DNA of 64,000 nucleotides from Plicaturopsis crispa FD-325 SS-3 (taxonomy: Eukaryota > Basidiomycota > Agaricomycetes > Amylocorticiales > Amylocorticiaceae): the NCBI GenBank assembly GCA_000827205.1, contig KN832575.1, forward strand, positions 147,443 to 211,442, in the 5' to 3' direction. The translations under genes and the position numbers were made by a program. Shown piece by piece: positions 27,509 through 57,301 of this stretch; the stretch's first letter is position 1; the number at the start of each line of letters is the position of its first letter. A model generated the notes under the pieces. That model saw nothing but the letters and a program-made list of their open reading frames with translations, made no database searches and had not been told where the DNA came from.

Positions 27509-28548
27509 TCAAACGGCAGCATAGGACCGCCAGTATCCTGGCAGTGCATGCGCCGCCGATAGCCAAACCTTTAGAGTTCAGGGTCAATATATGGTTGCCG
27601 ACGGCAGCAAGGCGAGCTTACATTGTAAAGGTAGAACGACACCTGGTCCTGCGGCACGGATTTAAGTGTCATGAACCTGACGCCGACCAGCAATGCCAAC
27701 GCGTGGAAAGATAGGCTCGTCATTACGTCCACCTCCCAGATGAGAGTTAGCGCGGCGCTCCAGCTCAGCAGGCCAGCGATGACAGTGTAACGCGCAATGA
27801 ATGGTACGACGATCGGCAACGTCTGGCGACCAATGAGGCGGTCCCCTTCCGTGTCCTTGAAGTCTTGTGCCTGGATCGTCGTGAAGAATATTCCGAAACT
27901 GCACATAACAGATACGATGCCGGCGCCGTCCAAACTTGTGCGGTCACAGCCTGTTGTGAAGCGTCAGCTACGTAGCCCATTGAGCAGATCTTGCGAGTAC
28001 GCACGTGCAATCAAAGTCGATCCGTATTCAAACGATGCAAAACCGCACGCGTTGATGAAATTACGGACGGCCCAGTGGCCCGCGTGGCCGCCGCATTCGT
28101 CGTACAGAACAGTGAAGAACACGAGCGCGACGCTGGCCCAGAACACCTGCAGGCTATAATACAAGCTCAATGCAAAGCATGTCGGGACCAATAGCCAGCG
28201 AAGAATTATCGCGTTTCTGAAGGTGATACGCCCCGAGGGGAGGGGCCGATCCTTCTTGTTGTTTTTGTCCTCCTCTGGATCGAGTGTCTGGTTGGACACG
28301 TCAAACTGGAGAAGGTGTAGCCATATCCAGAAGACAGCATGTGGTATCGAGGAGAGCGAACAGGCGGGGGCGGATACAGTGGCGAGAATACTCTGGAAGA
28401 GGCAATTTGGTCAACGCAAAGTGAGTGAGACGGACAAAGAACGTACAATTGGAATGAGAGTCGTCTTGATGTCAGACTTCGTGAACAAGAATGCAGTGAC
28501 TGTGTGGTACCAGAGTCCGGACGCGATGGAGGTAATGAGGGATGCCAT
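27509..28548 (-). CDS. UbiA-family prenyltransferase or terpene cyclase, copy 1
   Basis: Four exons (28447-28548, 28005-28392, 27622-27950, 27509-27568) give 292 residues. The integral membrane protein has both Asp-rich motifs of the UbiA superfamily: NQTLDPEEDKNNKKD (N-x3-D-x3-D) near residue 70 and QDFKDTEGDR in the second half. These bind the prenyl diphosphate through Mg ions. UbiA enzymes move prenyl groups onto acceptors; some fungal members cyclise farnesyl diphosphate instead, as in fumagillin synthesis. Which of these applies here cannot be told. The copy at 56.2-57.3 kb has the same exon plan, with exons 2-4 equal in length. It is followed upstream by P450, SCCPDH-like and GMC genes on the same strand. 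TATAAAG lies about 45 bases before the ATG. Confidence 0.92.
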
Positions 28549-28592
28549 TGTACAGACTTGGTCAGGATATCGACGTACCTGTCCATGTAAGG

Positions 28593-28599
28593 CTTTATA
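28593..28599 (-). promoter_or_regulatory. TATA-like box of UbiA copy 1
   Basis: TATAAAG on the minus strand, about 45 bases upstream of the ATG at 28548. Confidence 0.4.
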
Positions 28600-30010
28600 T
28601 CTGCCTCGCCAGGTGTCAAGATCAAAGAAGAACAGCTGCAGTGTTTGGCGGGACCTTTCACCTACACAGTGACTCCTGCGCTGTTTCGAAGCAGAACACG
28701 ATAAGCCTCTAGAACTGAAAAATGACGATCAACGGAGATAGAATAATGAGGGAGGAGAACAGGTTTGCGCACAAAATCTTGTGCTTGCGTTACCCAATAA
28801 TTGCCCGAGGCCTGCCAGCCTGGTCATTCTGCTATCAAAAGATGCGAAGGTACATAAATCGACGGGGCTCAACCGGGACGATCAAGCCGTAAACAGTGCA
28901 TGGCACATGGGGTACATAAGGGCCTATGACTTTAGGCCCCTTGCTCTCGCGGCGCTTGCACATCTCGTGTTGGGCTGCGCATTTCCTGTTGGGAAGATAG
29001 GTGAGAGTGGCGCTCAAAAAAACGTAGAGACATAGCAAATCACTGCTTACCAAGTTGCACGAAAAGATGTGTGTTATGATATCAGTCGAAAGATGTGTGC
29101 AATGCGAGTTCAGAGCAGCCATGATGCAGGTCGAAGAAGGTCCCACATCGTAATCGCCCTCCCGATCCTGTCAGAAGCACCTCCCGATTTATTAACGCGC
29201 GAGTACTTAATCAGGACTTCCCTTTGTACATTTCTGCGGGTAGGCGGCCGCGAGATTCCGTATGTTGCCCGCGCCAGTTACATGAAGACCATTGCGCCTT
29301 CCGTATGCCGTAGACACCGCTGTATTAATCAGTAGATTTCCATCAAATACGCCCACCGAGAAGGACGGCCAACATAGCCTACCATTTTCCTGACCATCCA
29401 GAGGCGAGTGCGATTGATACAGAGCATCTGAGAGCATTTGACCATGCTGCTGTATGTACACAAGCGAGAGCAATCCAAGCCTGTGACTGTCGAGATCTGG
29501 AGCGAAAGATCGAATCAGACCCGAGTCGGAGATGCCCGCTCGCATGCGCATCCGGCGGCCCCAGCACATTGGCGGCGCATACTGTAAGTATTTTGCAAGT
29601 AGCGAGCGCTCCGAGTGTGGCGGCAAGTTGCACCCACAAAAAGTTGTCCACTCGGCCGTGATGCACCACCAAAAATCTTTAAGTACTGGTCATTTCAGTG
29701 CATTACTCGTGAATCGTGATGTGAGTATGCACAGCGCGGACTACTGCTACGTTTACAAGGGTTACACACAAAATTACATCACCTGGAAGCAACAAGAAAA
29801 TAAAACAATGGGAAGCAAAGCAAAGCGATATAACATAGCGAGCGGCATCGAAAGTAGAGGAAAAATAAGTCGTATCGTAAAATCGTTAGGCGAGCATGAT
29901 GACCTGCAGTTGACAAAATGGTGAGCATTGATGCTCGCCTGTTGGTGAGAACGCAACCCACATTAAACAGCGTTCATCTCGTGGATCAAAACTATATGCA
30001 CCCAAGTGCA
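28600..30010. other. Spacer between UbiA copy 1 and the P450
   Basis: No gene is supported. Frames at 28781-29035 and 29207-29672 lie in conflicting frames on both strands. Confidence 0.4.
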
Positions 30011-32056
30011 TCAGAACGACTCTTCTGTCTGTGCAATCACGTCCGCAACTTCAGGGAATCTGGGTGTTATGTCGCACTCGAACGGCATAGCACGCCTGCC
30101 GAGGACCGTAAATCATCAGCATCGCATGCAGTAGAAATACCACATGAAGGAACGCACAGTATAATCCCGTCGCTCGTATGATTCTTAATGTCGGGAAGTA
30201 TTTTCTGGCCCGACGCGTCGACAAGAGGGGTGAAAGAGCATCCCCATAGCATGCATGCGATGTCAATGAAGAGGCTATTGTTCGCGAGGAAGCGTCCCGG
30301 GCAGATGCGGCGACCGTAGCCGTACGTGACATGGCCTTCCTCCTTCGTATATCGCGGCGCGGGGGCGAGGATGGCATCATCTTCGGGCCTATAGGTATAG
30401 CTCGACATACCATCAACCGGCGAGGACGACCGGGATGACGCGAGGAAACGTTCCGGGCGGAATTCGGTGGCATCGGGGCCATAGACCTCAGGGTTGCGGT
30501 TCATTGCCCAGATGTTCGGCAAGACTATGGCACCCTTGGGAATGAAGTAGCCATCGTACCAATCGTCCTCCATAAGCATGTGCGGCATGCCACCTATTCC
30601 AGGATCAAATCATGATGCGGCAAGGACTCCAGATGATGAAACATACCAGGGCCAACAGGTTTCCAGCGCAAGGCTTCCCTGGCAATCGCACGAATATACG
30701 GTAGGTTTTCCATGTCTTCAAACGTAGGCATGCGAGAGCGGCCAACCACTGCGTCGAGCTCCGCTTGGGCACGCTCTTGGACATGCGGGTAGTGCAACAT
30801 TGCTTGAATGAAGAAGACGAGGACACCGGCCGTAGTCTCAACGCCAGCGCCACTATTCTTCCAGTAAGCATATTTTCTCTGTCGCGAACGGTGGAATATA
30901 AAACTTACTAGAACGTTGCCGCGAGCCATGAGGATTCCGCTTTAGTGAGGCCATGCCGTTTCTGTTGCGAGATCAGGGATGCGACGATGCTTGGTTGCTC
31001 GTCACCCTTAGCCTGCAATGTGCTACGTTAGAACAGTGTCCACAGACGAAACATAGTTGGACATACAATCTTCTCTGCAACGCCATCGAAAAGGCTCTCG
31101 AAAACCTTCGAATCACTGTTGTAATGCTCGAGGGCATCGCGTTTCCATTTCGCCAACCACGTGGGCATATATTTCATCCACGTGAACAGTTCGACAAGGT
31201 AGGCGCCTGGTTGTGCTGCGCGCAGTGCGCGGGCCATGAACGCGGAGATTTGCTTGATAGCTGGGTCCGTCGCGCGACGCATAGTGTCGGCACCATAAAT
31301 AATATTGGTCGTGATTGAGGTCGTAGTGCTGATGCGACCAGATAAGCAAGCATAGACTGTATTTAATTTTCAAGAGCACGTACCGAAGTAGATGGGCGTC
31401 AAATTTTGCGGGCTCATCTAAGAGGCCTTTGGTCATGATTGCCGCTTCCATCGACTGTAACCGGAGATAGTCCTTGACACCGGATTTGGACAGTGCTTCG
31501 TGAGTCGACCGACGCATGCGTTTCGACCTAAAACATCGCCCTGTAGTTGGTATGAAGAGTAACAAGGAATTTGACAAAGTCCGGCTCACGTTTCCCCATA
31601 AGAAAGGAATGCAAGCGAAAGTCCACCCGTGAGAAATTCGGAGCCAACTATCGAGCGAGGACGCCCAGAGTAGATAGCAGAACGCTGGTCGAGGAGGTCG
31701 GATGCAACCTTGTGGTCGTTGAGAACGATGACAGTGTGTCCAACAAGGTTCAGCGAGATGATTGGGCCTGGCACACAGTAAAAGTCAAAATTTGAGCACG
31801 TCAAAATTTCGCGACACAAGTGATGATATATACCGTAGATATCCTTCCACTCTGTGAAGAGCTGCCACGGTTGCATGGAGAGCTGGAGGAGATTTCCGAG
31901 GAGGGGAACACCGCGGGGTCCAGGGGGTAATTTGCGGTACGGAGACAGATGCCAACGGATCGCGAGGAGCGCCACGAGGGTGATAGCCATGGCGGCGCCC
32001 AACCTGACGCGCTCGTCATAGGGAACAGCGAAGAAAAGTGCGGACAGAGATTCCAT
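30011..32056 (-). CDS. Cytochrome P450 monooxygenase in the UbiA cluster
   Basis: Start ATG at 32056 gives a membrane anchor (TLVALLAIRWHLSPYRK) and a hinge (LPPGPRGVPLLGNLL). Later exons carry the C-helix WAKWKRD-like region, SAGVETTAGVLVFF (I-helix, A-G-x-E-T-T) and REALRWKPV (K-helix E-x-x-R). Further on are FRPERFL and the haem loop YGYGRRICPGRFLANNS with the Cys ligand. The last exon (R-A-M-P-F-E-C) joins after intron GTGCGT...CGGCAG, with the stop at 30011. At about 520 residues the length is normal, and no break was seen. The style (DDWYDGYFIPKGAIVLPN) is that of the large basidiomycete P450 group often labelled O-methylsterigmatocystin-oxidoreductase-like. Its position beside UbiA suggests oxidation of a prenyl or terpene product; this is inference. 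Confidence 0.93.
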
Positions 32057-33583
32057 TGCAGGGGATACCGGGGGGCAGGGAAGGAGCAGGGACAGCGGCT
32101 GGAATGAAATATTCGCCCATGTATACCCCAGTCGAGTATATGGGCATCCCGAGGCCTGGGATCTCTATTTCCATGCTGGACGCGCTGCTGTTACACGCCC
32201 GATTGCAGATCTTACGACAGGAATCATGCCGTTGGCCGAACCCTCTAATCTGCGATTTTGTACGTCAACGTTTCCCGTCTGAGGACTCCCGTTCTCCCCG
32301 GGAACAGTGCACTGTGGACCGTGTAAATGGTCAAACCTACGGTGCGGCGTGCCTCGGCGTCATCTTCTCGTTCACGTACACCCGTCTCCAGGCTTTACAT
32401 ACAGTCATTTGACGAGGATATTTGGTGGCGTCCGTGGCGTCGCAACAGTGCGTAGGATTTGCTAGCCATAATCCGAGAGCAGAGTCGAGTCTGCTGGTGG
32501 AGTTTAGATCACGAAAGGGAACTGAGCAGAATTGCTCACATCGGATGATCATGATCAACAGGTTTGACTCCGAAAACCATGCCGCAATTGACCCGGCGGT
32601 AAGGAAGCGCGTGGCCCACAGGCACGGCTCTAGCGTGAAACCTGAATTTCTGCAAATTGCTGCAAAGTCTGTAACCAGCGCCTGCAGGCGGCTATTGGTA
32701 TCACGGTCGAGCTAAAGTAGAGGCTAGTAAGGGCCATACGCTAGTCGGCCGCGTTTTTAGATAGCGGCCTATAGGTTGCAGTGTTTACCCGCCTGTGCAA
32801 TATTGCCATTGAGCCAAACTACAGTCCACATTTTACCTCGTACCGGGCTATCAAGTGACAAGCGTATTTCCTATCCTTCCGGGTCCATCAGATCAACAGT
32901 CTGGGCAGGTCTCTGCCGCTTGGATGAGGAGTGCGGCAGCAGCGCCCGTGGACGATGGAGAATTAAGCTGGTGCAAATTATGTACGGCAAGACGAGTCCA
33001 GGCGCACGTCGCCGTGTCGGGCGTCGCCCACCATCTTGTGCATCGGAACCTTGCCGCGCAATAATAACGTACTCACCCCGCGTGGGCCAGCTGCCTAGAG
33101 CCGTCCCATGTTCCGTAGCATCGTGTTACCTACCCCGTTGCTACCGTTGAATATCGTCGAAGCCCGACATCCTACGTAGTATACTGGAACTTACACGGAA
33201 TGAAGTGATCGACGTCCAGACGTCGGTAGTTAATTGCGGCCTACGACCCTAGTATTTAGAAGACCACCAACCGCCTACTACAAGATGCGAGCGGAATAGA
33301 TAAATTAATGTGGAGATATGTAATGCGGCCTTGACTACGATAATGATAGGCTGCACTGGTAGAGCGAAAGATCGTGGAGGCGCACTGCGGCGCGTAGGGT
33401 ATAAAAGATCTAGGCGACTGCCGGCGACACTGATCGCTCTTCCGTGCGCAGACGCGGACTGGCAGCTGAAAAAGGCGAAATTGTCAGAAGACAAGAAGGG
33501 GACCGCACAAAAAAACGGCGTCCCGTACCTAAATTGAATTCGAAAGGAAGCGACTCGCCGGTACCGCCAAGGTACCACGGCTA
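32057..33583. other. Spacer
   Basis: No gene is supported. Frames such as 32422-32715 and 32776-33150 have no recognisable motif. Confidence 0.4.
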
Positions 33584-35915
33584 CTATACCCGCTTCTTCG
33601 CTGCTGCCGCATCAGTGGCACATGCTTGTGCATTGACCTGCAGCTGAGTACTCTTGACCAGTCCACTCTGTATGTCGAAGCGTCCGGATCCTCTGAGACG
33701 ATCAACCAACACGTCACCAAGCGCGCTCATCGGCGTCAAGATACCACCTTCGCGTGATGGGAGCGATTCGTGCTCAAGCGCGAGCGCCAGTGCACATTCA
33801 GTGGCGAATACTAGTGGAGATAATGCATGTCGTCAGCTTTCTGAATGTGTGGGATGATAAAGACAGAACAAGCAACCCCGTAAAGCTAGTTAAGCGTTAG
33901 GGCATAGGATAGCTGATCCTGATGGAAGGGAAGGGCAGCTTGATGTAGGAATGCAAGGCCACGAGTATGGACCAGAAGAAATGTGCACATGAACACCCGG
34001 GACATATTGAAGCAACGGTGATCAACGTAGAGGTAATCCACTGCAGCTCCCGTGGTCACTGTTCGTCGGTCACGGTTCATGCTAGCATGCACCGCGAGCC
34101 GAGACATGAGCGCCACAGTGCGTACCCGGAGCACATGAAGATAGGCCGGGGAAAGAATATAACAGCGGCACAACCAAAACAAGCATATGGACAAAGAATG
34201 ACACACCTGCAGTGAGGAGATACGACGGATCACCCTTAGCATTAAGAGTGCTTTTCACAGTAAGGTGCGGGTGCCCTGATATAGTAGAGACATTGGTGGC
34301 GTTGATCCAGCCTTTTGCCATGGTCCTGTCACGGAGGCGGTAAGTATGATGTAGACACAACTTCGAGCTTACGCAAAGCGGCGGGAAGTTAATCTCCTAT
34401 GCCGCCGGGAAATGCTGAAGAGCGTGGCAGATAGAAATAGAAAGCATGAGACGCACTCTCTAGCCGGCCCGGCACCGGGGTATATGGCTATCTTTTTCAA
34501 CAACCAGCGCACCTGCAATCACTAGCATAAGCTCCAAGCTTGAAGACGATAGATTGAGATACCCACAGGCGCAAAAAATGCCAAACAGATCGCGCTGATA
34601 GCCATGGTGGTAGTGACTAGGGCAGCGACTATGCGTCCGCCTTTCACAACCATCATCTCGTCATATGTAAACTCGTCTTCGACGACGGTAAAGTATCTCG
34701 ATGCGGCGACCTTGGCGAGTCCGTTTAGGCCGCTCATCGAGTCTGCTGGATGTCCATTGCCGTTTGGATGTCCGTTGGGGAGCATATCACCGTTCGCGTG
34801 GCCGTTTCCATTCCCATTCGCGTACGCGGTGTAGGATGGACAGACGGTGAGATGTGATCGTTGACGTGCCTCTTGAAGCCGCATGAGCCCCCATGTTCTA
34901 TGCACGACGGCACGATTCACTGGCAACATCGCATAAAACGACCCACAGACTGTAGGATGCTGGTGCGGGAGGGTGTATACAAGCTGAGGGGGTAGAGAGG
35001 GCAAGCCCTTAACTGTAGAAAACAGTGAGATTGAAATTAGAATGAAAACCGGTAAACTTCTGCACGAGGCAAGCGGGAACGTACAGGGACTAAGAGCCCA
35101 ATCGGAATAAGCCTGCTTTACCTTCCAGCGCGGCATGTTGTCGAACATCCCCAAAAAACTGGTCAGAGAGCCGGCACTCAGTTCCGACATACTCAAATCA
35201 AACGCGGTTCGACTGCGCCCAAGATAAACTGGCGAGTTTGAGAGGTGGGATACATGTTTGCGAGCAGTCTGGAGCGAAAGGTAGACCAGAAGATCCGAAG
35301 GAACGGAGTCGAGTCCACAGGAAGGAATCACGATGCTGCCTGTCTTGGTAGCTAGGTAGTCGAATCTGCACAGTACGCACATTATTAAGAGGACAAAGTG
35401 CGAGGCAACGAGAGGAGACGAAAACGCACTCTTCAATGATGTCACGTACCCAGGTGGTCTCTGCTGTTAGATCAACGTAATGGACACCATACTTTACACA
35501 TGCCCTTAATGATACGCGCTTAAATGCACGTCGTTGAGAAAGAAGGCGACGCGACTCACCGGACAACCGGTGTGCCATAGGTCCAATAAGGGCACACGAC
35601 GTTGATAACAACGCGAGCGCTCCTTACTGCAGCATCGACCGCAGCGTGGTCCTCGACATCCACCACCTGAAGCTGAACACCTTCAGCCTCAACAAGTTTC
35701 AAGGTTGCGGCGAGCGACGCAAGCTTATTAGCAGAGCGACCAGCGAGGATCAACGAGAACTGGTCTCGTTGAGGGTGCGTCGCGAGATACTCAGCGATGA
35801 GCACCCCCGTAAAACCTACGTCCGCCACGTCAACATGAGTCGGGAGCGCATTTCAGAGATGGCTCGTACCTGTCGCGCCCAGAAGGAGGACATTGTTGTT
35901 CTTCTCCTGGATCAT
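33584..35915 (-). CDS. Saccharopine-dehydrogenase-like oxidoreductase (SCCPDH type)
   Basis: Start at 35915. The first exon (MIQEKNNNVLLLGATG) joins FTGVLIAEYLATHP across a short intron, giving the NAD(P)-binding Rossmann fold G-A-T-G-F-T-G. Then follow VINVVCPYWTYGTPVV, KYGVHYVDLTAE, GSIVIPSCGLDSVPSDLLVYL and, near the end, a single membrane-type helix (TTTMAISAICLAFFAP). These are the marks of the SCCPDH-like trans-acting enoyl reductase/saccharopine reductase family. An Asn-Gly repeat insert (NGNGNGHANGD...) lies before the helix. Two further exons that the long frame misses continue it: TMAKGWINATNVSTISGHP and VFATECALALALEHESLPS, ending AAAKKRV at 33584. The last intron (33811-34206) is 396 bases, far longer than others in the window. 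The substrate is unknown. Confidence 0.88.
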
Positions 35916-36513
35916 GCTAAAAGCGCACCAAGACTTCCACCCAGTGGACAACGAAAAGAAATAAATAAAAGAGATGTCGTTCACACCTCATGTTATACCG
36001 TCGTAAGTGGGACTTTTTCCCGGAATCAGAGGAATCTGCGTTGAAACCAATAATGGGAAGCAGGGGCAGGACAGGGGCTTTCATTTCGGCGAACCGGCGG
36101 CTGTCCTAAATTGCAACGGAACCAAATCAAAGACAGTCGGTGCCGGTCAATCGCTCCAACTCAACTCCTGCGCTGTCGGAAATGGCTTCGTCGTCGTCGT
36201 TGCGTATGCTAGCTGCGATATGTGCGCTCTCGGTCGAGTACACTGTACATGTACGGACGTTCAATGAGCACAAAGATATCGCCAACAATCCCGGTGGCCC
36301 TAGTATGTGCCTCAAATCCAACCTTGACGACGAGGAACTGGCACCTATCGCATTGGTTCGCAATATGATATTTACGGGTAACCGTACGTTCTCCACATGT
36401 GCATCCGAGTCATCATAATACATGCTCTGTGCTCTTTTTACTCTACTATACACGATGAATATTGCCCAGCGATTCCTATTTATATGTAACGTTGAGTGCA
36501 GTTCGATGCACCT
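35916..36513. other. Spacer between the GMC and SCCPDH-like genes
   Basis: It must hold the SCCPDH-like promoter and the GMC 3' end. No other feature is recognisable. Confidence 0.4.
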
Positions 36514-39241
36514 TCAAGCGCTTGCTTTGATGATGTCTGCGGCCTGAAGGCACCAGACGATATATCAGCACATAGCTGCGGAGGCGATATAATGGTGATG
36601 TGGCTCACTTTCTCCGCAATTGCGTATACCGTAGCCTGTGTGTGCGCCGATATCTGCAAGGGGATGATAGACGCATCGACCTGATAGAACGATCCCGATG
36701 GTGTCGTTAATAAGGTCACGTAGAAACAAGCGAGCTCCACACATACGACGCGCAGATTTGCAGTTCCGTATACCTTCAAACTGGGATCCACAACGCCGCC
36801 GTCTGCGCGGGGGAGCATGGCTGCCGTGCCGAGAGGATGGAAGCTCGTCGACAGGGTGTTCCGAACGTACTGCTCGAGCTCCTTCTTCGTCCCGGGCCCA
36901 GGCATCACCTCCTTTCCAACGAACGCGCCCAGAGCATTTGTCGCGATAGCCTTGCGCACCAGGTCAATTCCCGCAGCGAGTAAGGCTACGTCGACACCGT
37001 TGTCCAGGAAGCGCGGGTCGATGGCGGGCGAGTCGGTCGGGGTAGCTGACGTTATGTGCACTGAGCCGCGAGAGAACGGGTGCGTAAGGCCGACGAAGAA
37101 GAAAATGTACTTCTTTCCTGCCTCCGGCGTCGTTCCGAGCGCCGGGTAGAAGGCAGGAAACTCAGAAAACCTGGATTAACAGTATTGAGCGGCACTTGTC
37201 AAAATATCGCATTAAGCTTGCGACATACTCGACGACAGACGCATTATCGTCAGTGAGCCATTGTTTCTGCAACTCCAACCCTTTCTTCACACCCTCGGGG
37301 AGGTGATCAAAGCTGATGGCCTTCGCAGCCTCAGTCACCTCGGCGGCATAATCCTCAGACAGCGTCTTCAGCGGTGTGAATGCGAACACCGAAGTTGTCG
37401 ACGCGAATATGCCTTCCTTCTTCTTCTCACTGAGTATACTCACATCAGTGTCAAGAGAGATCCAGCAGCAAGCACTGGCGTACTAGAGCTCCCACTCAGC
37501 GGCAGCGCGAGCGGGGTCAGTGAGCAGAACGTCGACGCTTTCTTGTTTCGTATCCATCTCAGCCGTGAGGCAAGTAAACGAATGGTCCTTCCCAGCGAAT
37601 ATTTTAAGCACACGATAGCACGCTTATGAAGTAGGAGCTGAAAGTGACTCACCTCTGTCATGAAAGCAAGTTCCGGGGGTGTCAGAAAGATAAAACTTCG
37701 TATGGGCGTGAATGCCATCGAGCGAGCTTACGGAGGTTGTTTCCAACACCTGGTAGGTCGACAAGGACCGGTATTCCGTGTGCCCCCAGTACTTTGCTGT
37801 CGCCAATTCCTGATAGCTCCAGTAGCTGGGGTGTCTGGTATGAACCTGTGTATCGCATTTTAATATGAGTTTCTCGTTCGTCGGCATATGACTGTCTAAT
37901 ACACACCAGCGGCTAGGATGACCTCCTTCTTCGCGATAGCGACGAGCGTCTTGCCATCCTGAATGTACTCGACGCCCTCCGCGACCTTACCGGCTTCGGC
38001 GGAGTCGGTTTTGAAAAGCACGCGGGTGGCGCGCGCGCCGAGGATCGTCGTGAGATTCTTCTTAGAGCGGTTCGGCTCGTAGTATGCCTTTGATAAGAAT
38101 TGACCCATTAATTGACCCATTAATCCTGGACGTGACGAATATCAATGGAAAGACGAACTGTTGCGGCCGAGCTGCGCGTGACTTCCACAGGGTCGAGGGC
38201 GGCGTAGCTTGCCCATGTGCCGATGTTGTTTCCGTTGCTCTATTCAAGATGTAAAATTGATGCATGGACCAGTGGAGTTAAGTGGAGTCAGGACAGACGG
38301 TTTCGGGGTTGTATGGCACGCCTAGTGCCTTGAACGCTTCGATGAAGGCGCCATGCGCATCTGTTATCCACCGGGGAGTAGTTTTCTGAAGCGGTCCAGA
38401 GCTACCATGCGCAGATGTATCGACCTCCATGGCGAGCTTGGTCGTGGCTTCCTCGGTATACGTGAATGTTTCTGACTGGGGGAGAAGAGAACATCGATAA
38501 AGATTTTGGCATCTGGTAAGGCAGAGGCGTACTTTCTTAAAATACTTGAACAGCTCTGCCCAGTTCCATCCCGGGTTTCCCAGCTTCTCGAAGGCTTAAC
38601 GCCGACGCGGGGACATAAGTCGACGAGTATGAATGCATAGCAAACAGCATTGGACGCACCATCATACTCGTCTGCATGGCCCCTGCGTTTGGAAAAATGT
38701 CAATGATAATGTATGCAGTCAAATCAAGCTCGGGGCCCGCCTTGTGAGGAGCATAAAATTGATCTGGGCATGACGACATCAGGAAGTGTGGTAGATCGCT
38801 GATAGATAGTAAAGCGCACGAGGGTCGATCCACCGAGTCCCTTCCCTCTGTGATGGCGTAGATTAGCATATATGTTATATCGCCCGGTGCAAAGGGCACC
38901 ATCTCAAAGAGACCTGGGGAGATAGATTGGACGCCCGTTGGCGCCTGGTTGCGGCGTACTCATAAAAGTCCAGTCAACTTCGGGTTTCGTCAGGTTCTTC
39001 TGCATAAACCCTGCACATACGCGCGCGCAATCAGCTCGTGCACATCCTAGGCATCGACATCTAACTCACCCGGGATTTTGACATTGGTGCTGATGTCGGC
39101 AAGCGATGTGGTGTCCTGTCCAGCCTCGATGACGCCCACCGTGACATGCGGATCTTCGGCAAGGCGTGCAGCGACGACGAGGCCAGCGAGACCTCCGCCA
39201 ACAACAAGATAATCAAACGATAAGCCTTCTGAGGATGACAT
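36514..39241 (-). CDS. GMC oxidoreductase (FAD-dependent)
   Basis: The flavoenzyme starts at 39241 with [19 protein letters not shown] (FAD Rossmann motif) and the typical VGVIEAG strand. Later exons carry RGKGLGGST (second signature), [36 protein letters not shown] (second GMC signature) and [13 protein letters not shown]. The C-terminal catalytic pair is the His of [10 protein letters not shown] and the His of [19 protein letters not shown]. The stop is at 36514. Relatives oxidise alcohols, aryl alcohols, glucose or choline; the substrate here is open. Intron 38683-38740 seems to use a GC donor. Joining NNL to QDH needs a 2-base exon at 37653-37654, flanked by clear acceptor and donor sites. 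No disabling break was seen. There is no clear N-terminal secretion signal, so I infer an intracellular enzyme. Confidence 0.93.
37653..37654 (-). other. Apparent 2-base micro-exon in the GMC gene
   Basis: On the minus strand the sequence reads TTCATGACAG, then AG, then GTGAGTCAC. Upstream the exon ends CTCC before GTAAGC (donor at 37731). Downstream an exon starts GACCAT after CTGGGAAG (37588-37652 is intron). Only by keeping AG does the frame give L-Q-D-H, the invariant GMC motif. Confidence 0.65.
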
Positions 39242-44440: not shown

Positions 44441-44454
44441 TTTTGCGGAAGACA

Positions 44455-45709: not shown

Positions 45710-47716
45710 ATGGACACCGTCGTCCTGGTTGCCCTCGGCCTTTGTCTCGTCACTGCCCTTTCCCTCGCGTTTACACGTCGAAAACATGCCGCCTACCCTC
45801 CTGGGCCGCCTATGCGACCCCTCATAGGGAACATCCTCCGCGTCCCCGCCAAACATCCGTGGTTAGGGTTTACAGAGTTGAAGGAAACATATGGTGCGTG
45901 TAACTGCTCCTGACAGCAGATGCGGAGCTCCTCTTAACGCATCATACAGGCGATCTTGTGTACTTTAAAGGCCTTGGAAATTCTGTTCTCGTTCTCAACA
46001 CTCTCAAGGCCGTGAACGACCTCTTGGAACGACGAGGGAACATCTACAGTCATCGGCCCATTCTCACCATGGTCGGCGAGCTCATGGGTCTTACACACGT
46101 ACTTCCATCATTTCTTGCTGAAGCGCTCCGCGTCTGACGCGATTCATACAGGGCATGGTCATGATGCCAGCAAATAAGACATGGGCGATGCACAGAAAAT
46201 TTGCCCGGATAGCATTGAACCCAGAAGCGGTGAAGAAGTACCATCCACTTCAGGAAGACCTAGCAACGGTCTTGGTCAAGGACATCATTGCGACGCCTGA
46301 GGACTTCATTCTGCACATCCGTCGGTAGGTTATCTTGCTTCAAGATGATTGTTCATCTTCTTCAACGGTGTTCACCCCTGCAGAGCGTCAGGCCGAATCG
46401 TTATGTCGGTCACATACGGACTTCCGGTAGACGCGTCATACGATGAGGTATATCTGCATTCGTCCACAGCTGAAGAGATCCACTCACATGCTGCATACAG
46501 TACGTTGCTGACGCCGAGCTAGCGATGGAAATCATATGTCAGGCTATGGCACCCGGCGCACACATCGTCGACATTATTCCTGCCTGTGGGTACCACTCAT
46601 CACCGGACAACGTGACCGTCATCTCATTTTTAATTTCTAGTGAAACACCTTCCGCGGTGGCTCCCCTTCATAAAGTTTCACCAACATGGCGACTATGGTC
46701 GCCAGGCCATCCTTGACTCCATAGAGAAACCGTTCAATCGCGTCAAGGAGGAGCTTGTGAGTAATGTGCTGATGCATTCAGTGCAATGCTCATTTCATCT
46801 CGGCAATGTTACAGAAAGCAGGCACTGCGCGTCCGTCGATAGTCAGCAGTCTCCTTGAGGACACCGATGTCAACAGCGAAGACAACTTCCAAGAGACCGT
46901 CCAATGGATAGCAGGCGTCTTGTACGGAGGTTAGTAAGTTCCCTATCATTTGTGTCCGTTACCGTCTGATCAATTATTCAGCTGGTGGAGAGACCGTTTT
47001 CACGACGGTGGAAGTATTCATGCTGCTCATGGCGCGTTACCCGGAGAAACAGCGTAAGGCGCAGGCAGAAATCGACAGCGTGGTTGGAGCGGACAGACTT
47101 CCAACTATCGCGGATCGACCCGATCTACCATATGTTGAGGCGCTGATTAAGGAGACAATGCGATGGTACCCCGCAGTTCCGCTAAGTACGCAACCTTTCC
47201 TAGTTACGCGGGCATCGTATCTAACTCGGTTGATAAGGTATCGCGCGGCGCACCGCGGAAGATGATGTATACCAAGGCTATCTCATTCCTAAGGGCACGG
47301 TTGTCTTCCCGAATGTCTGGGCTATCTCGCACGACGCAGCAAACAGTAAACATGACCCTGCGGACTTCGTTCCCGAGCGATTCCTGGACGACGAGGGAGA
47401 GGTGAACCCGGCCAATTATGCATTCGGTTTCGGCCGCAGGCTCTGCCCGGGAAAGCACCTTGCAGAGAACTCCGTGTTCATCTTCGTCGCGTCTATCCTA
47501 AGCTGTCTCGACGTCTCTCCACCGAAAGATGCGCATGGGAACGAATTACCGGTGGAGGTCACATATACAACCGGCCTCGTAAGGTGCGTACAACTACTCC
47601 CATGCTTTGCGGCAGTCTTGCTCTAACCCTCTTTTTCTTCAAGTTGTCCCGAAAATTTCCGCGTCGACACCGTCCCTCGACCATCCGCAAAAGCAAAGCT
47701 CGCCCACTACATATAA
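45710..47716 (+). CDS. Cytochrome P450 monooxygenase, second in the UbiA cluster
   Basis: The start ATG at 45710 gives an N-terminal anchor ([17 protein letters not shown]) and hinge ([15 protein letters not shown]). Exon joins checked by frame give [21 protein letters not shown] (C-helix W-x-x-x-R) and [14 protein letters not shown] (I-helix, A-G-x-E-T). They also give IKETMRWYP (E-x-x-R), DFVPERFL and the haem loop [17 protein letters not shown]. The last exon ends KAKLAHYI at 47716. At about 510 residues it looks complete. It belongs to the same broad basidiomycete group as the P450 at 30-32 kb but is clearly not a recent copy of it. It is flanked on both sides by DUF6534-like genes. Its role in the cluster is inferred from position only. 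Confidence 0.94.
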
Positions 47717-48056: not shown

Positions 48057-50086
48057 TCAAGGGCGAGAGATCGTGAGTACGCCAGCACTCAAGTGGTCAT
48101 GAACGCATGGGTGCACCTCGAAGAAGCTGATGACGAAAGTCGTAGGATTCAAGACGCTGAGTTGCGCGACTGAGTGTACACTTTCTTTGACCTCATTCTG
48201 AGCGAAGATGAACGTCCAACGGCCCCGATCCTGATCCCGCTCACGAAGATTGATAAAAACTGCGACGATTTCTTTTAGACTGCGCTCCCCGAAGGCCCGA
48301 TAACTGGGAATGTACGATCCTCGCGTACGGTTGACATCGTTCGCATCGTGGACGCACTCCGCTTCCTGTCCACCTTGATGTCTCTCAAGGTCACCACCGC
48401 AGAATCCTATCGTGCCAAGGTCAGCCACTTGTCGAAATGAAAAAAAAAGAGTGCGCGCCCTGTTGGTGGTCAAATCTGATAGAATCGGTCCTTGCTCCGC
48501 GTGGCGAGCCCGAGTGTTTAGATTAGCAAGGAGACTGTTGCAATAGAGGGGGCACTGTGGGAAGTATAGGCCTCGGTAGATTTGTTCGTTTTTCAGTACG
48601 GCAAGCTGTCGACATCAGCATTTAGTGATAGAACCTCGGGGTAAGCCGCGGGCACGAACTGTGACCACTGTGCACGCAGCGAACGCGGCGGTCCATATAC
48701 CAGTATGTATGGACTTGATCGCAACGCGTTGTAGAATGTGGTCAGAGCTGTATAACATTGTGAGTACGACTAGCTTCAGCACTGTAGATAGCACCAAGTG
48801 GACTCGCCCTTCAAGACCCTCTATGCGGCTTTTCCACAGAAGGTATATTAGCGCAAAGGAAAGCGCAATGTCAACGACAGCAGCCGTCCCGTTGACAGCG
48901 GTAAGAGTGAGCTGCAGCGAGGGAGTTCAAAATCTAGACGGCACGATGCATAATTTGCTTACCTCTGAGCGAACAGTGAAGTGCTCGCGATCATTAAGAT
49001 GGCTACTGCTGTAAGAGCGTCAGAGGTTATCACCAGCATGGAGGACATCATGTACATACCGAAATATGATGAAAACTTTTCCACGTAGAACAAGGGTTGG
49101 AGACACATTCAACGAGAAGTCAGGACGTCTTGAAACGTACCTATAATGCCTACGACTTGAAAAAGGGCAGCGGGCGCCTTCCGTCAATTCAAGACATTTA
49201 GCCAGAACGCTACACGGTTTCGGAAAAAAATTGACTGACCCAAACAGTGGGAATTATCCAGCGCTTCTGGCTGAAGATCCAGATCCTGTAGCAAAAGAAA
49301 CCCTGTGTAGGTACGGAAACCATAGCCTAAGAAAGAACCGCAAATTAGATTGAGTGCCTACGAGTAAGTAGATTGGATTGGATTGCGCGAACCGTGATGA
49401 AGGTCTGCCACTGAAAAGGGTCGTCAGAACTAAGGTCTCCGTTATGTTGGGGGATCTCACCATGAATTCTCTGTCAACAAATCAGTTAGCGGTACGTCCA
49501 CATGTAACATACGCAGCACGTACGGCACTGTGCGGCTGACATAGACATAATTGCCGAAGTAATGAATTAGGACAGAGTAAACTGAAAGGGGGTGGCGACC
49601 ATGAGCACGAAGAGAATGCTCTATGAATGGAGGAGAACTCACGCCCAGTGACTAGGAGCATTGTGTGTGTTGTGTCCATGACCCTTAGAGAAAAGGCGGC
49701 TGAGCATTCTGGGTAGAGTCTGCCGCGCAGTACGAATCATACCAGATCCAGCAGACCTATGCACAGCAGGGGACGGACTCAGTGGGCACTCTCAGATGAC
49801 ATCACGGAAACGTTACCAATGACTTGATGGACCGTCGGTCTCTCGGATAACTAGACGCACGTTAGGGCACACTCGCAGTGGTGAAGGATAGCCACTGACT
49901 TCAGAAAGTACATGAACCTGTCGTGCAGATCAAGTTGTCAGTGTGACACTCTTTCTGCTGTGGGATACAACCAACTTACGTCTGCAAGCAAGTCGCGCCC
50001 CACAAAGCGAAAGAAAAGCAAGTGGAAACGAGCTCCACGCCATAGTACGGCCCTAGATTGACATTGCTACTCACTATGGACGACAT
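48057..50086 (-). CDS. DUF6534-like multipass membrane protein, copy 2 (15 exons)
   Basis: Fifteen exons join in frame, for 408 residues: 49980-50086, 49900-49917, 49817-49850, 49743-49756, 49643-49683, 49524-49581, 49461-49470, 49393-49410, 49240-49326, 49141-49177, 49060-49075, 48963-49008, 48808-48911, 48660-48747 and 48057-48605. Recognisable family pieces are GPYYGVELVSTCFSFALWG, FMYFLNYPRDRRSIKSL, VMDTTHTMLLVTG, FFCYRIWIFSQKRWIIPTV, VDIALSFALIYLLWKSR, RVAIKSIHTGIWTAAFAAC and CPLYCNSLLANLNTR. Exon 7 has only 10 bases. Intron 48748-48807 has a GC donor (GCGAGT). The long C-terminal tail after LANLNTR is not conserved and may hide another intron. Function is unknown. Confidence 0.82.
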
Positions 50087-51753
50087 GACGGGAGAGAGAG
50101 CGAAAGACAAGACGACCGAGGCGTGCTGACGGGTATTTAGCATAGCTGCGGACAGGTCGCCCGGAAGCGAAAGACGGAAGAACTGAGCAGTGGGGCGGGG
50201 TGGAAGCTTGCCGGTGCGGACATCGTTTGCAGTAACTCATGAGCAGGACAGTCTTTCGCCGCTCAACGTACAATTTCGCAGGACCACTTCTTGCAGTTTG
50301 CAAAGAGCGAGTACCCGATCGACCACAGGACTGATTTATGCCGGCATTCATCTTGATAACAGGGCGGATAAGCATTTGGATGAAGTCGAATACATGAAGG
50401 GGAGGGTACCCGGTCGGGGCGGGAGGTTGCCGGCCCGGCGGTAGCATGAACCATTCGGCGACCTGTACAAAGAAGAATAAGTACTACAGAAGTAGACTAG
50501 GAACCCAGCCCGTCAGGCTGGAGCAGCCGCTATCGATGCAGCAAGGGAGACAGAACGACGTGAGCGATCGACAGTTTGCATTGATATGTCGCTTTCGCGG
50601 GGAGTCCGACATGCAAGTCCGGCTTCGGGGTAGATGGCGGAATTTTCCGCCGCTGTACTAGCAAAGACAGCGGATCAGCATCCTGAACGCAAAAACGCAT
50701 CATGCACTCACATATTTACGCTTGGTACGAACGTCGAGCGTGACTCTAGAAGGCAAGCCCACCTCTTGCGCCCTTGCGATATCGCACCATGGCGTCGCAT
50801 CAATATTCGCGTAAAAGATGGCTGCTTGCCTATTTTCTGACTCGAAACCTCGGCGAGGAGCGGAGCCTAGAGCGACGAGGCGTCGAAAAGTTATTCACAA
50901 GGCATGACTAGCAATGAGCCGGAAGGAAGGTTTTGCATGCGTAAGTGCAGGAAGGAGGGGCCTGGGTGTCCGTTGCGTTCGTAGGATAGTCAAACACAAA
51001 TGTCTGGACGGATTTCCACCGCGCTACTACAAACGGAACCATCTTCATGAATGCTGGAGCGGCAGCGGCATCCCTAGATAGTTCAAAAAGCGAAGGGGCA
51101 TGTCCGCAAGCCGTCAGCCACGTTATTTCTAGCCACCCTTCGCCAGTGCCACATTGGAAGTTGGAATTGCCATTCACATTGGCTAAGGCTCGTTGGTGTA
51201 CTATTCACAGGGTTCCAGGACCAGCGGTGTAGATCGTGCAATTCGGAAGCATCTGCATATATATATGAGATACGCACTGTTTCGACCATGTCGCTCACAT
51301 ATTTCTCATCACTGAGATCCCATACGGATGGATGTCTGAATGCGATCAGGATCGTATTGAGCGTCTTCCAAATGAAAAAGTGACTGTGACAGCGCGACGA
51401 TGCGACTTTTCATATCCCGGGTGACGAGAAGGAGGCCGACGATATCTTCGCCGTGTTGACCAACAAGGACGCCCATGCATTAGGTATACAGACAGAGAAC
51501 GGTGACGACGAGCGACCGACAGAAACCAAGTTGTACAAGGAAGGAGCTGGTTGTTATTGTACAAGTCACTTTTATTAAGAACTTCGGAGTCGGACAACTT
51601 CAAGATCTGCAACACTGGCAGCCGCTTCCGATGTCCGAGCCGACGCGCTGCAAGTTGTGGGACCTTGTGGATTACGGATTGCACTTAACGGTCAAGTCGA
51701 CCGCTGGCTGCTGGTCGGACTGTCGCCATTCTCTCATTCTTTAATCTGTATCG
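50087..51753. other. Spacer with an unassigned open frame
   Basis: A minus-strand frame at 50908-51177 (TWLTACGHAPSLFELSRDAA...) reads smoothly and vaguely recalls the C-terminal part of fungal F-box-type proteins, but I cannot support a gene. Nothing else is recognisable. Confidence 0.35.
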
Positions 51754-54592
51754 ATGTCTTTCTTCGCTCGCCCGCAAGGTACTTCGGCTGTCAAGATCGT
51801 CCGCCCAGAACCAGAGGAAGAAACTTTGCCCAAGGAATCGCCTCGAAAGGGTCAGTCGGTTCACATGGCTTCATATAGTCGTTAATGCTGCACGACCGTA
51901 GAGAACCAACGCCAATGCAGGAACATCCTTATCTATGGGTATGCTCGATGTGTGGATTCGCTCGTTCCCTAATAGCACTGACTATCTGCGTCCAGATCAT
52001 GTAAGTTCCAGGACAAGGGTTGCATATACTATCATCCCCCGGTGAGTTTGGTTTCAAATCCGGGCGCGTCTTCTATGAATGAGGGATCAATGCTTGGACT
52101 GGACCAACAAGTGCTACTGGCTACAAGCTCCTGTTACATTTCACGAACGCGACGTGAGAGTCCGGTCCAATGCACCGACTAGTCAACATCTTCAACCTCG
52201 GAGATCGGTGTCGATGGCATCGAATCTCTCATTCAGCGCCAACCTACTACTTTTCACTCACGCTAAATTCTTCACTTATCAGGCACAAGACGATACCATT
52301 CCTACGACGGACACCACGTCCCCGCGCATGTCCAACTCCACGCCAGTCAAACTTTCTGCAGCGGTAAATGCTCCGGTTTTTGTCCCCAAATCAGCCGTCG
52401 CCGCGGCTTTCTCGCCACCTAGCACTCCGCCTCCTCCTTCTGCCGCGTCGTAAGTCAGCCCCAATGTGGTCATCTGGTCAAGAATTCCAACGGTGCCGTT
52501 TGTAGTACGCCCTCGGTTCAGGCCTACAATGACCAAGACCAGGAACACGATCCTTACAACCCTTACTCCTACCCTGCCTCCCATGATGACGAACTCAATG
52601 GCCATGCAGGAGGCGTATGTCTTGTCCTTGCTCGTATCAGACGCCTAAGATTATTGATAACTTAATTCAGATCGATCCGTATGAGGCATCACCAGATATG
52701 TATTCTTCGGGATACGATGCCTCAAATGGAATGGATCCATTCTATCAAACTCCGCAGCCCACATTCGTTCGCCAACCCGTAAGAAAGACCTCCGCGAATT
52801 TCATCCCGGTACAATTGACGATCCAGCCTCTAGCTCCTGTATCACCTCTACACAGCTCCTATTCCGGCGCCCTTCGATTCACACTTCCTTCCATCGGACC
52901 TGCGCGAGAGCCTTACACAACGCGCCGAAACTTTACGCACATATCCTGCGTCGACCCTCGCAGGCCTTCCAGATGAGCTTCAAGGGTATCATACCCTCGT
53001 TCCGCTCGAAAATACGTCCAATGAGCGGAGAAAATTTGGAAATTGGTACTCTGTAGTGTATCGCGCGACGTCGTCAGTCGATGGCGGGACGTATGCCTTG
53101 CGTCGCGTCGAAAGTAACTGGCATCTTCCCGTATACCTTTCGACACATCACTCATTGTTTCAAAACAGATTTTAGATTAATGCACCAGGCTGCCTTCACC
53201 GCCATCGAGACGTGGTCACGGATTCAACATCCAAACATCGTCTCGGTCCGTGAGGCATTCACGACTCGCGCCTTCAACGACAATTGTAAACTCGTCCCTC
53301 CCACCCGGCATACGATCCCTGATTGACTCAACCTGCTTTCTAGCCCTTGTCGTGGCTTACACTTATCATGCCAACTCCCTCACGCTTTTCGATGCCCACC
53401 TGAGCTCGACTGCTGGCCACAAACAGCCGTCTCCCCTCCCTGAACGCACACTCTGGTCGTATCTCATCCAGCTGGCCAGTGCTGTCAAGGCGGTGCATGA
53501 TGCTGGCCTCGCAGTGCGCGTTATTGACTGTACAAAGATCATCGTGACGTCCAAAAACAGGTAACATACTGTCAACATAGTGTATACCCCTCTCTGCTCT
53601 AACGGTATTGCATCACAGAGTCCGTATCGGCTCATGTGGTCTCGTCGACGTCCTCACGTATATTCCAAACCTTTCGCCAGACCCCGCGCTTATTCAACAT
53701 CAACAAGACGACATCATATGCCTAGGGCGTGTTATAATGGCCCTTGCTACTCTGAACTTGGCTGCACCTTCAAACCTCCCTAAAGCTCTCGATACTATGA
53801 ACAGGCTTTACAGCGCGGAATTGAAGAACGTGGTTTTATGGATGATCGGTGTCACAAAAACAGGTGTCCAGCGGGTGAGGTTGCATCCTCTGACGGGTCT
53901 GAGCTGAAGGCTCATGTGTCTCTTCTGGCAGACAATTGCACAGGTCTTCGAGCTCATTGGAAGTCGCGTAGCGCTCGAGATGGATGAGGCGAACAAGTCA
54001 GTTCCTGCCTATTCGTACGACTGCACTTGCTGATATATTTCGTCGCGGTAGTGCCGTTGACAAACTTGAGGGCGAGCTCATGAGCGAGCTTGAAAATGCT
54101 CGACTCGTGCGTTTGCTGTGCAAGTTTGGTTTCATAAACGAGAGGCCCGAGTGCGTTTCATTCAGTTATTCTTCTGCCCCGTGCTAAAAACGTGAATACA
54201 CAGATTCTCCCGCGAGCCACGGTGGTCGGAGACCGGGGATCGATACATCATCAAGCTTTTTCGCGACTACGTCTTCCACCAGGTCGACGAAGCCGGCAAC
54301 CCGGTGGTCAACCTTTCGCATGTTCTTACATGTCTAAATAAGGTTCGTGTGTTGCTTTGTACGCATATCTGCTGTTGCTCATAGCACTGCTATTAGCTGG
54401 ACGTTGGCACGGAGGAGCGGATCATGCTTGTTGCGCGTGACGAGCAGAGCTGCCTTGTCGTTAGTTATAAAGAAGTAAAATCGTGCATAGATGCGGCGTT
54501 TAGGTGGGTCTTGTCTCCGTTCGATGGTCACTTCTCTGTTACCTGACTGATGCCACGACAGTGACCTTGCTCGGACGAGCTATACGCAATAA
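51754..54592 (+). CDS. PAN3: PAN2-PAN3 deadenylation complex subunit PAN3
   Basis: Fifteen exons join in frame from 51754 to 54592, giving 624 residues. The N-terminal CCCH zinc finger reads [21 protein letters not shown] (C-x8-C-x6-C-x3-H). A Pro/Ser-rich linker with a tyrosine-rich part (DPYNPYSYP) follows. Then comes [11 protein letters not shown], the PAM2-like/linker region, and the pseudokinase domain ([54 protein letters not shown]). The C-terminal domain has [31 protein letters not shown] and [21 protein letters not shown]3 binds poly(A)-binding protein and brings the PAN2 nuclease to mRNA tails in the cytoplasm. The kinase fold lacks normal catalytic residues, as in the family. One intron (52042-52282) is 241 bases; the others are short. 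It is a housekeeping gene inside the cluster span. Confidence 0.96.
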
Positions 54593-56245
54593 CGGGGCGC
54601 TACGACAGCTAAGCTGATAAAATAGGTAGAATCAAAAAAAAAGACGAGGAAAAATATTAAAAATACAATTTGGCCTTTTCTTTTCGATCACGGGGAGTGG
54701 AGGATTGGGATGATGTGCTCGCGCGCTTTGCTTTGTCTCTCGCAAGGGGTGGTCCTCGGTCCTCAAATCAGCCCTGGCAGTGGTAGTACTTGAACGTTCA
54801 GCACCCTCGGTGTCCCTCCCCGCGAGTCACGACTTACATACCTAATTTGGATATGTTTTCTTTCATTTTGAACCCCGCGGCATTGGTAGTGCCACCCCCG
54901 GCTCGAGGATGGGCCTGGATGGCACGGTGGCGATAAGATATAGGACAAAACAGGGTAGAACGTGTCTCCGATATCATGCCTCGTTGTCCTTTTCCATCAG
55001 GAGAATGGCAAGACATATTGCACTTGGTTCATCGACTTCAGAATCAAAGGAGAAATTCCTAATCAGCGAGCCGCGTCCCACTTCTGCGTCGTACTACTCA
55101 ACGCCATCGCTACGCTCCGCGCGATGTGGGATCTCTTTCTCCATTCAAGGTGTACAACTCGCCAGTCGGTGTAGGCGACTCGGAGATCATGCTCTCCTCT
55201 TTCTCTCCCCTGTTACAGTCTTGTCCGCTAGTGCAGTCCGACTGGTCCTGCGGTGCTTATCCGTGATCCTGGATTGGCCAGTCGAGACATTGGGTTCACT
55301 AGTAGTAAGGTGATGAGGAGTCGTGATTCGTTGTTGCTGACACCAATACATGCCTGTTCTGCAGGCGACGTGGCCGACGTCGGGTCGACGCCGCGTCTGG
55401 GTCAGCTCGCCCGACGCCGACTCACATAAATGGTTCTGCCTGAGGATTCAGAGTAGGGCAAATCTCCGATAATTAGCCCTTAGGCGCAATAGGCAGCCAA
55501 GCAATGGGATATGTCATGATTAACATAGCGTTATACGTATACGATGCAAGAGGGCGTGGCTTTGAGCTCCGAGTCGGTTGTCTGGATGGACGTAGTACGC
55601 GTTTTCACCGCATGGCACGCAGTACCCAGTGGACCAGAATGTTGGTAGAAGGTGTCCATCATTTGTTCAGTCGAGCACAAGCTAAGATTCGAACTGTTGG
55701 CGCCCAATGACTTCGGCGTACGGGCAACGTTTCATGACGGTGCGCCACAAATCAGATCCACGTCGGGCATACCTCGTATAGACATTCGCGCTGTACCTAC
55801 TTATATACATCGGTGCCCCTCTAATCAAGATGCATTGCGATATTCACCTCCGTCATCGCCGCGTGTTAATCTTGCCCGTAGAGTCTGATTCAGGGCTGAA
55901 AGTGTGGCGGGACGCAGCGTGCTAGTGGCCGCTGACCTAGGCGCCACAACTTGCCGCCGGCTTGTGTTCATTATGGAACAGCCGCAAACTGCGCCGAAAT
56001 CTCATTACTCCCATATCTAAGTCTTCCCCGATTACTCGCCACTTTAAATTGACAGAACGTGTGTTTGCTAGTGGTCCAAGCCATCGACGTATGCGGAAAA
56101 GGGTGTACAATATATAGATTGTACATCAGTCATCTACCCGCTACATAGCATTGAAATCGGAGAGCAGAACGGGAAAAACTAGATCGTACCGTCGACTACG
56201 TCGCGAAGGAAAGCAAAGCAAAAGGAAACGGGAGAGTAGATGGGT
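54593..56245. other. Convergent spacer
   Basis: It lies between the 3' ends of PAN3 and UbiA copy 2. Short frames at 54909-55313 and 55504-55888 show no motif. I see nothing supported. Confidence 0.45.
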
Positions 56246-57301
56246 TTAGACTGCTACGTAGGAGCGCCAGTAACCAGGTAGGGCATGGGCAGCGGAAAGC
56301 CACACCTAAGGACAAGATGAGCACTCGGTGAGCGTGAGAAAAGCGGAGAAGGGCTCACGTTGTAAAGGTAGAACGACACCTGATCTTGCGGGATGGTCTT
56401 GTATTTCAAGAACCGGACCCCAACCAAAAGCGCGAGCGCGTGGAAGCACAAGCTGGTCATGATGTCAAGCTGCCAGAGGAAGCTGAGCCCAATGCTCCAG
56501 CACAACAGTCCGGAGATGACAGTGTAGCGCGCAATGGACGGGACAACGAGGGGCAGGGTCTGCCGGCCAATAAGGCGGTCACCCTCCGTGTCCTTAAAGT
56601 CCTGCGCTTGGATGGTCGTTAAGAAGATGCCGAAGCTGCACACGACGGAGATGATGCCGGCACCATCCAGACTCGTGCGATCGCACCCTATTCAAGAATA
56701 AGGGTCAGAGAAATGCTATTGCGACGAGGGGGGCAAGTACTCACGCGCAATCAGGGTGGAACCATACTCAAAGGAAGCAAATCCACATGCGTTAACAAAG
56801 TTGCGGACAGCCCAGTGTCCGGCGTGGCAGTGGCACTCGTCATAAAGAATCGTAAAGAACACAAGCGCGACGCTCGCGTAGAAGACCTGCGCACTATAGC
56901 ACAGGCTCAACGCGAAGCATATCGGGACAAGTGCCCAGCGGAAGATGATAGCGTTGCGGAAAGTGATGCGCCCGGAGGGGAGTGGTCGGTCTTTCTTGTT
57001 GTTCTTGTCCTCCTCCGGGTCGAGGGTCTGATTCGACACGTCGAATTGGAGGAGGTGCAGCCATATCCAGAACACGGCATGGGCAGTGGAGGAAAGCGAG
57101 CAAGAGGGCGCGGAAACAGCGGAGAGGATGCTCTATGAAGATAATAACGTGTCAGGCTTCACACTGAATGTTCACAGGAGAGAGAACAGCACGTACGATG
57201 GGGATGAGGGTGGTCTTGATGTCGGATTTCGTGAAGAGGAAGAGCGTGACGGCATGGTACGAGAGGGCGGAGACCGCCGAACGTACAAGATTGAGAGCCA
57301 T
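56246..57301 (-). CDS. UbiA-family prenyltransferase or terpene cyclase, copy 2
   Basis: Four exons (57197-57301, 56745-57132, 56359-56687, 56246-56305) give 293 residues. Both Asp-rich motifs are kept: NQTLDPEEDKNNKKD and QDFKDTEGDR. Exons 2, 3 and 4 have exactly the same lengths as in copy 1 (388, 329 and 60 bases); exon 1 is one codon longer. Large parts are identical in protein sequence, including TKSDIKTTLIPI, HLLQFDVSNQTLDPEED and YNVWLSAAHALPGYWRS. Differences are conservative and spread over the gene, while the introns differ freely. So this is a true paralogue under selection, not a recent exact copy. TATAAAAT lies about 105 bases before the ATG. Enzymatic role as for copy 1. Confidence 0.92.

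Follow-up and report, generated by a model that had tools for sequence, protein, structure and literature searches.

The stretch of DNA analysed here (the window, 64,000 nucleotides of contig KN832575.1, labelled C22 in the genome searches) comes from Plicaturopsis (Plicatura) crispa FD-325 SS-3, a wood-rot fungus that belongs to the order Amylocorticiales (NCBI taxonomy). It carries two genes encoding UbiA-family membrane proteins, UbiA1 and UbiA2, and the genes from one to the other were examined as a candidate terpenoid gene cluster. The gene models were obtained with a self-written gene finder, with splicing by hand where the models were wrong; one over-split run was discarded. Domain identities are from scans with Pfam profiles, which covered part of the 27.5-57.3 kb span. 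No Pfam match was obtained from 39.2 to 45.9 kb on the minus strand or from 43.0 to 46.0 kb on the plus strand, and the matches of an NCBIfam scan were all far below the cut-off. The following genes were found:

27509-28548, minus strand: UbiA1, UbiA-type terpene synthase-like membrane protein of 292 aa (hand splice, Pfam, motifs), with 4 exons at 28447-28548, 28005-28392, 27622-27950 and 27509-27568
30011-31990, minus strand: P450-1 (PLICRDRAFT_119208), exact match to the public protein, 8 exons, 523 aa
33584-35915, minus strand: saccharopine-dehydrogenase-like (SCCPDH-like) NAD(P)-binding reductase, hand splice, 9 exons, 509 aa, last intron of 396 nt
36514-39241, minus strand: GMC1 (PLICRDRAFT_47095), GMC oxidoreductase, exact match to the public protein, 16 exons, 596 aa
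40346-42027 (5' end approximate), plus strand: DUF6534a, membrane-protein family, divergent to GMC1, PF20152 right at the cut-off
45710-47716 (start codon by eye), plus strand: P450-2, PF00067 with an E-value of 7.2e-74
48190-50110 (ends approximate), minus strand: DUF6534b, PF20152 with an E-value of 7.7e-11
52283-54592 (model incomplete at both ends), plus strand: PAN3, PF18101 with an E-value of 4e-36, outside the proposed core
56246-57301, minus strand: UbiA2 (PLICRDRAFT_32827), identical to the public protein, 4 exons, 293 aa

An earlier note on this DNA had described two UbiA genes with the same exon plan, 28 kb apart on the same strand, and between them two P450s, a GMC oxidoreductase, an SCCPDH-like reductase, two DUF6534 genes and PAN3. 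The models and the Pfam profiles recover all of these, and the outer ends of the two UbiA genes agree exactly; the seven genes counted there besides PAN3 are in fact eight. UbiA1 and UbiA2, separated by 27.7 kb, both have exons 2 to 4 of 388, 329 and 60 nt with intron phases 0, 1 and 0. Profile PF01040 places both in the UbiA superfamily (E-values 1.4e-27 for UbiA1 and 1.2e-29 for UbiA2), and a UbiA fold is predicted for UbiA2, the one protein modelled. The SCCPDH-like gene is matched by PF03435 (E-value 2.7e-16) and weakly by two solved saccharopine dehydrogenases. GMC1 has no obvious signal peptide by eye; its intron 38683-38740 (minus strand) is of the GC-AG type, in agreement with the public protein, and the GMC2 duplicate described below has GT-AG there.

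Four of these genes, UbiA1, P450-1, the reductase and GMC1, follow one another in the same direction on the minus strand and occupy 11.7 kb (27.5-39.2 kb); the gaps between them measure 1462, 1593 and 598 bp. Between these four genes the gene finder gave only fragments of less than 30 aa, the domain scan having covered part of the span. The core at 27.5-39.2 kb has the contiguous backbone and tailoring genes expected of a gene cluster; over the whole of 27.5-57.3 kb, this contiguity is broken by PAN3. We give an even chance to the reading in which the four core genes form a sesquiterpenoid cluster that UbiA1 alone anchors and to which DUF6534a and P450-2 may also belong; P450-2 is a possible outlier of this core.

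The clustering was evaluated by keeping the three UbiA loci described below in place while the P450, the GMC and the reductase families were each displaced as a block by random circular shifts. The arrangement seen at UbiA1, with all three partner classes no more than 12 kb from a UbiA locus, arose in 2 of 200,000 shifts; with a limit of 30 kb, it arose in 11 of 200,000. The test was post hoc, the numbers of loci (77 P450, from 92 scored of 178 candidates, 17 GMC and 4 reductase) are lower bounds, and contig sizes were known for 8 of the 49 contigs and estimated for the other 41; it therefore makes a coincidence less likely but is no proof of a pathway.

The UbiA1 and UbiA2 proteins are 84% identical over the aligned codons. 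A whole-genome search with UbiA2 gave three matches, namely UbiA1, UbiA2 and a copy at C10:784080-785136 (the C10 copy); the other UbiA-family matches, on C1, C2 and C19, were not recovered with this query. In a tree of 72 rows (UbiA1, C10, UbiA2 and P0002-P0070), these three sequences form one clade (support 100/99) inside which UbiA2 pairs with the C10 copy (99/94) and not with UbiA1. The synonymous divergence (dS) is 3.8 between UbiA1 and UbiA2, near saturation, 1.45 between UbiA1 and the C10 copy and 0.81 between UbiA2 and the C10 copy; the C10 row comprised the first 260 of 289 residues in the alignment and the tree, and the full coding sequence served for dS. A recent tandem duplication of UbiA1 and UbiA2 was rejected in view of this near-saturated dS and of the pairing of UbiA2 with the C10 copy.

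The earlier note had considered the two UbiA paralogues as the brackets of one cluster, loose or made of two parts. The common exon plan and strand are consistent with this proposal, as are the two P450, three GMC and one reductase loci within 30 kb of UbiA2, but the nearest relative of UbiA2 is the C10 copy and the dS values point in the same direction. Moreover, within 12 kb of UbiA2 there is one P450 locus and neither GMC nor reductase, PAN3 stands between UbiA2 and the remaining genes of the span, and the GMC (including GMC2 and GMC3) and DUF6534 paralogues run past UbiA2 to about 73.6 kb. A single cluster from UbiA1 to UbiA2 is consequently very improbable, and we read UbiA2 as a paralogue in its own right that would have no part in the proposed UbiA1 pathway and does not seem to mark the other end of a cluster. 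A gene for a Lon-type protease, recognized by eye, follows beyond UbiA2. Among the 120 public proteins listed of 231 matches, those other than UbiA2 itself share at most 66% identity with it; UbiA1 (84%) and the C10 copy (83% to UbiA2) are not among the matches listed, in spite of identities for which a rank near the top is expected, so that both are probably not annotated in the protein set searched.

Motifs were counted in 122 aligned rows, made of these 120 matches, UbiA1 and the C10 copy. Motif II of the UbiA-type terpene synthases Tps1A, Fma-TC and EriG, QDXXDXXXD, is present as QDFKDTEGD in both UbiA1 and UbiA2. A tyrosine occupies the presumed site of Y155 of Tps1A in 120 of the 122 rows, including UbiA1 and UbiA2, and by its position it would be the equivalent of this catalytic residue. 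Motif I of these synthases is NXXX(G/A)XXXD; its N and its final D are found, and position 5 is D in UbiA1 and UbiA2 (G or A in 6 of the 122 rows). Because of this misfit, we describe the two proteins as working like a terpene synthase and do not file them as members of that class.

An alternative is that the UbiA proteins are aromatic prenyltransferases building a meroterpenoid, like VibP1, ClaS, HePT8 and LaPT3, with the P450 and the GMC enzyme as tailoring enzymes. These four belong to the same Pfam family and, according to the available part of PMC12790560, they have in common with UbiA1 and UbiA2 a membrane protein, Asp-rich motifs and DxxxD; the last is found as DTEGD inside motif II and has no discriminating value. 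Motif I of UbiA1 and UbiA2 also fits the looser NQxxDxxxD, an example of a prenyltransferase motif in the introduction of that paper. However, NDxxDxxxD and YxxxK, given as typical of the aromatic enzymes in the same part of PMC12790560, are found in neither protein: all 122 rows have Q at position 2 of motif I, and the K position of YxxxK is G in UbiA1 and H in UbiA2. In addition, the longer form of motif II described for UbiA-type terpene synthases, QDxxDxxxD, is the one present here, and we noticed no gene of the aromatic-acid or polyketide type between the two UbiA genes. We therefore regard aromatic prenyltransferases as unlikely. The earlier note had seen in these genes the usual tool set for oxidised terpenoids or meroterpenoids; the enzyme set holds, part of it in compact order, and the motifs favour a membrane terpene synthase of the Tps1A and Fma-TC type over the meroterpenoid type, without settling the matter.

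GMC1 and DUF6534a have paralogues beyond UbiA2, given here in the window numbering:

63977-64000 (3' tip; continues past the window to about 65.7 kb), minus strand: DUF6534c, divergent to GMC2
67214-69857 (outside the window): GMC2, same 16-exon plan as GMC1

GMC1 and GMC2 share 68% of their residues and form a P. crispa-only pair (100/97) in a tree of 46 rows. Besides the two sequences, this tree holds 44 rows taken from the 118 remaining matches of the listing; they were selected by rank, leaving out P0254 because of its excessive length and including five distant rows. DUF6534a and DUF6534c are 58% identical over one stretch of 52 residues; DUF6534b gave no match to DUF6534a at an E-value of 1e-3. 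Both GMC genes are divergent to their DUF6534 neighbour and both members have their paralogue in the other pair; this suggests an old duplication of the divergent pair in inverted orientation, with the duplicate at 64-70 kb, and the two intergenic stretches have no remaining match to each other. Among the GMC matches of the genome search, only those on C22 have a DUF6534 match within 10 kb. In Hericium alpestre, a single gene model (P0353, on a more distant GMC branch) joins a DUF6534 domain to a GMC enzyme, which hints at the same adjacency there.

DUF6534 proteins are GPCR-like according to a machine-learning prediction in the available part of PMC12842992; DUF6534a and DUF6534b match the domain of this proposed class, whose role is a prediction only, and DUF6534c resembles DUF6534a. 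The accessible part of PMC9602373 also places a DUF6534 protein in a predicted cluster of Laetiporus sulphureus. The GMC and DUF6534 genes might thus be a divergent sensor-enzyme pair duplicated as a unit, of which the UbiA1 block uses one, with the receptor-like DUF6534 protein responding to or controlling an oxidised sesquiterpenoid from a P450-GMC-SCCPDH relay; this extension is a long shot.

Several observations weigh against the UbiA1-anchored cluster. Besides the two features of motif I (D at position 5 and the fit to NQxxDxxxD), the duplicate of GMC1 is paired with DUF6534c outside the block, so GMC1 may serve another role. Exact 7- to 9-mers in the promoters of six candidate genes, a weak test, reached no sharing threshold, and neither a transporter nor a complete regulator was seen in the block. 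In other species, relatives were found on a shared contig in 1 of 16 for UbiA and P450-1, 1 of 17 for UbiA and GMC1 and 0 of 18 for P450-1 and GMC1. Shared contigs were judged crudely by equal contig size, from the named-species matches of three listings of 120, with uncertain orthology; genes that share one of the two contigs concerned (507 kb and 2.4 Mb) need not be close to each other. The earlier note had referred to such relatives as polypores, which does not fit a species of the Amylocorticiales.

The contig and promoter results also speak for an alternative in which there is no pathway and separately expanded accessory families (P450, GMC, DUF6534 and UbiA), each with its own role, have come together by chance between housekeeping genes. 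The recurrence of GMC2, GMC3 and DUF6534c beyond the block agrees with such a neighbourhood, as do the surroundings of the C10 copy, where no P450, GMC or reductase locus lies within 30 kb and the predicted neighbours look housekeeping by eye. Against it, the shift test rarely brings all three partner classes as near as 12 kb to a UbiA gene, and the core is a single-strand series of four genes in which no further gene was found. A chance neighbourhood is a real possibility, to which we give somewhat less than an even probability.

The genes, their order, the motifs and the predicted fold of UbiA2 are shown here; each catalytic step of a sesquiterpenoid pathway anchored by UbiA1 is inferred, as are its substrate and a co-regulation of the genes. 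With its two Asp motifs, UbiA1 would ionise farnesyl diphosphate and then cyclise it, P450-1 would hydroxylate the hydrocarbon, GMC1 would oxidise the alcohol to an aldehyde and the SCCPDH-like protein would reduce a conjugated double bond or a carbonyl. Canonical terpene synthase matches are on C6, C9 and C16, polyprenyl synthase matches are on C1, C2 and C5, and none of either kind is on C22. Fma-TC belongs to the fumagillin pathway and EriG to the erinacine (cyathane) pathway. The two are membrane cyclases of the UbiA type, and their motif II is that of UbiA1 and UbiA2 (PMC9835599), although EriG makes a diterpene and not a sesquiterpenoid. A close parallel in composition is with the tps1 and tps2 clusters of Antrodia cinnamomea, whose bisabolene synthases Tps1A and Tps2A have motif II QDxxDxxxD and the conserved Tyr in common with the P. 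crispa proteins; in tps1, P450s and reductases lie near the UbiA-type synthase, as in the UbiA1 block (PMC9835599). In contrast, position 5 of motif I is D in P. crispa and not G/A, and its block has a GMC oxidoreductase and an SCCPDH-like reductase, with no methyltransferase seen in it. Tps1A, Tps2A, Fma-TC and EriG were compared by their published description. A GGPP synthase is part of the diterpenoid cluster predicted in Hericium coralloides, according to the available part of PMC11508549, whereas C22 lacks polyprenyl synthase matches. A literature search (titles and abstract openings; UbiA with GMC oxidoreductase only in part) gave no paper on this locus. Long-read transcripts of P. crispa from cultures on glucose and on cellulose have been published (PMC4503453).

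Other features of the window are the following:

7596-9839, plus strand: third P450, parts of which are 36-38% identical to the C1 P450 near a reductase paralogue
22464-24738 (extends below 22.3 kb), minus strand: CHO2-type phospholipid methyltransferase, left-hand neighbour, partial model with identity largely by eye
26545-26781, plus strand: remnant of the tail exon of a DUF6534 gene, next to UbiA1, 40% identical over 63 aa to DUF6534c
59747-62847, plus strand: Lon-type ATP-dependent protease, gene model with identity by eye

The methyltransferase gene has a PF04191 match at about 22.2-22.4 kb. The region of the DUF6534 relic gave no Pfam match on the plus strand of 24.7-27.4 kb; near it, the frame 25844-26107 resembles by eye a portion of a gene for a phosphatase or a rhodanese-like protein. 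A partial Zn(2)-Cys(6) cluster match at 15959-16030 (plus strand), just under the Pfam cut-off and about 11.5 kb from UbiA1, could be the fragment of a regulator. Upstream of the window (L009, L031), a long run of N adjoins a retrotransposon-like open frame. The surroundings of the reductase paralogue on C1 were rejected as a further copy of the block, the P450 near this paralogue matching the one at 7.6 kb; P450-1 and P450-2 gave no match to this region at an E-value of 1e-4. A segmental duplication of the whole block is not supported either: P450-1 and P450-2 are only 32% identical, and the DNA self-matches over 84 kb are confined to the UbiA, GMC and DUF6534 genes, besides short repeats near 0.5-0.8 kb.

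The locus is a caution that paralogues at both ends of a span need not delimit one cluster. In the available part of PMC10608071, 172 characterised sesquiterpene synthases of mushroom-forming fungi are counted and two, Tps1A and Tps2A, are named with a UbiA domain; further UbiA-type candidates are useful because only these two are named, and the four-gene block is compact enough for testing in yeast. The sensor-enzyme pair, if true, would give roles in terpenoid metabolism to both the DUF6534 and the SCCPDH-like proteins.
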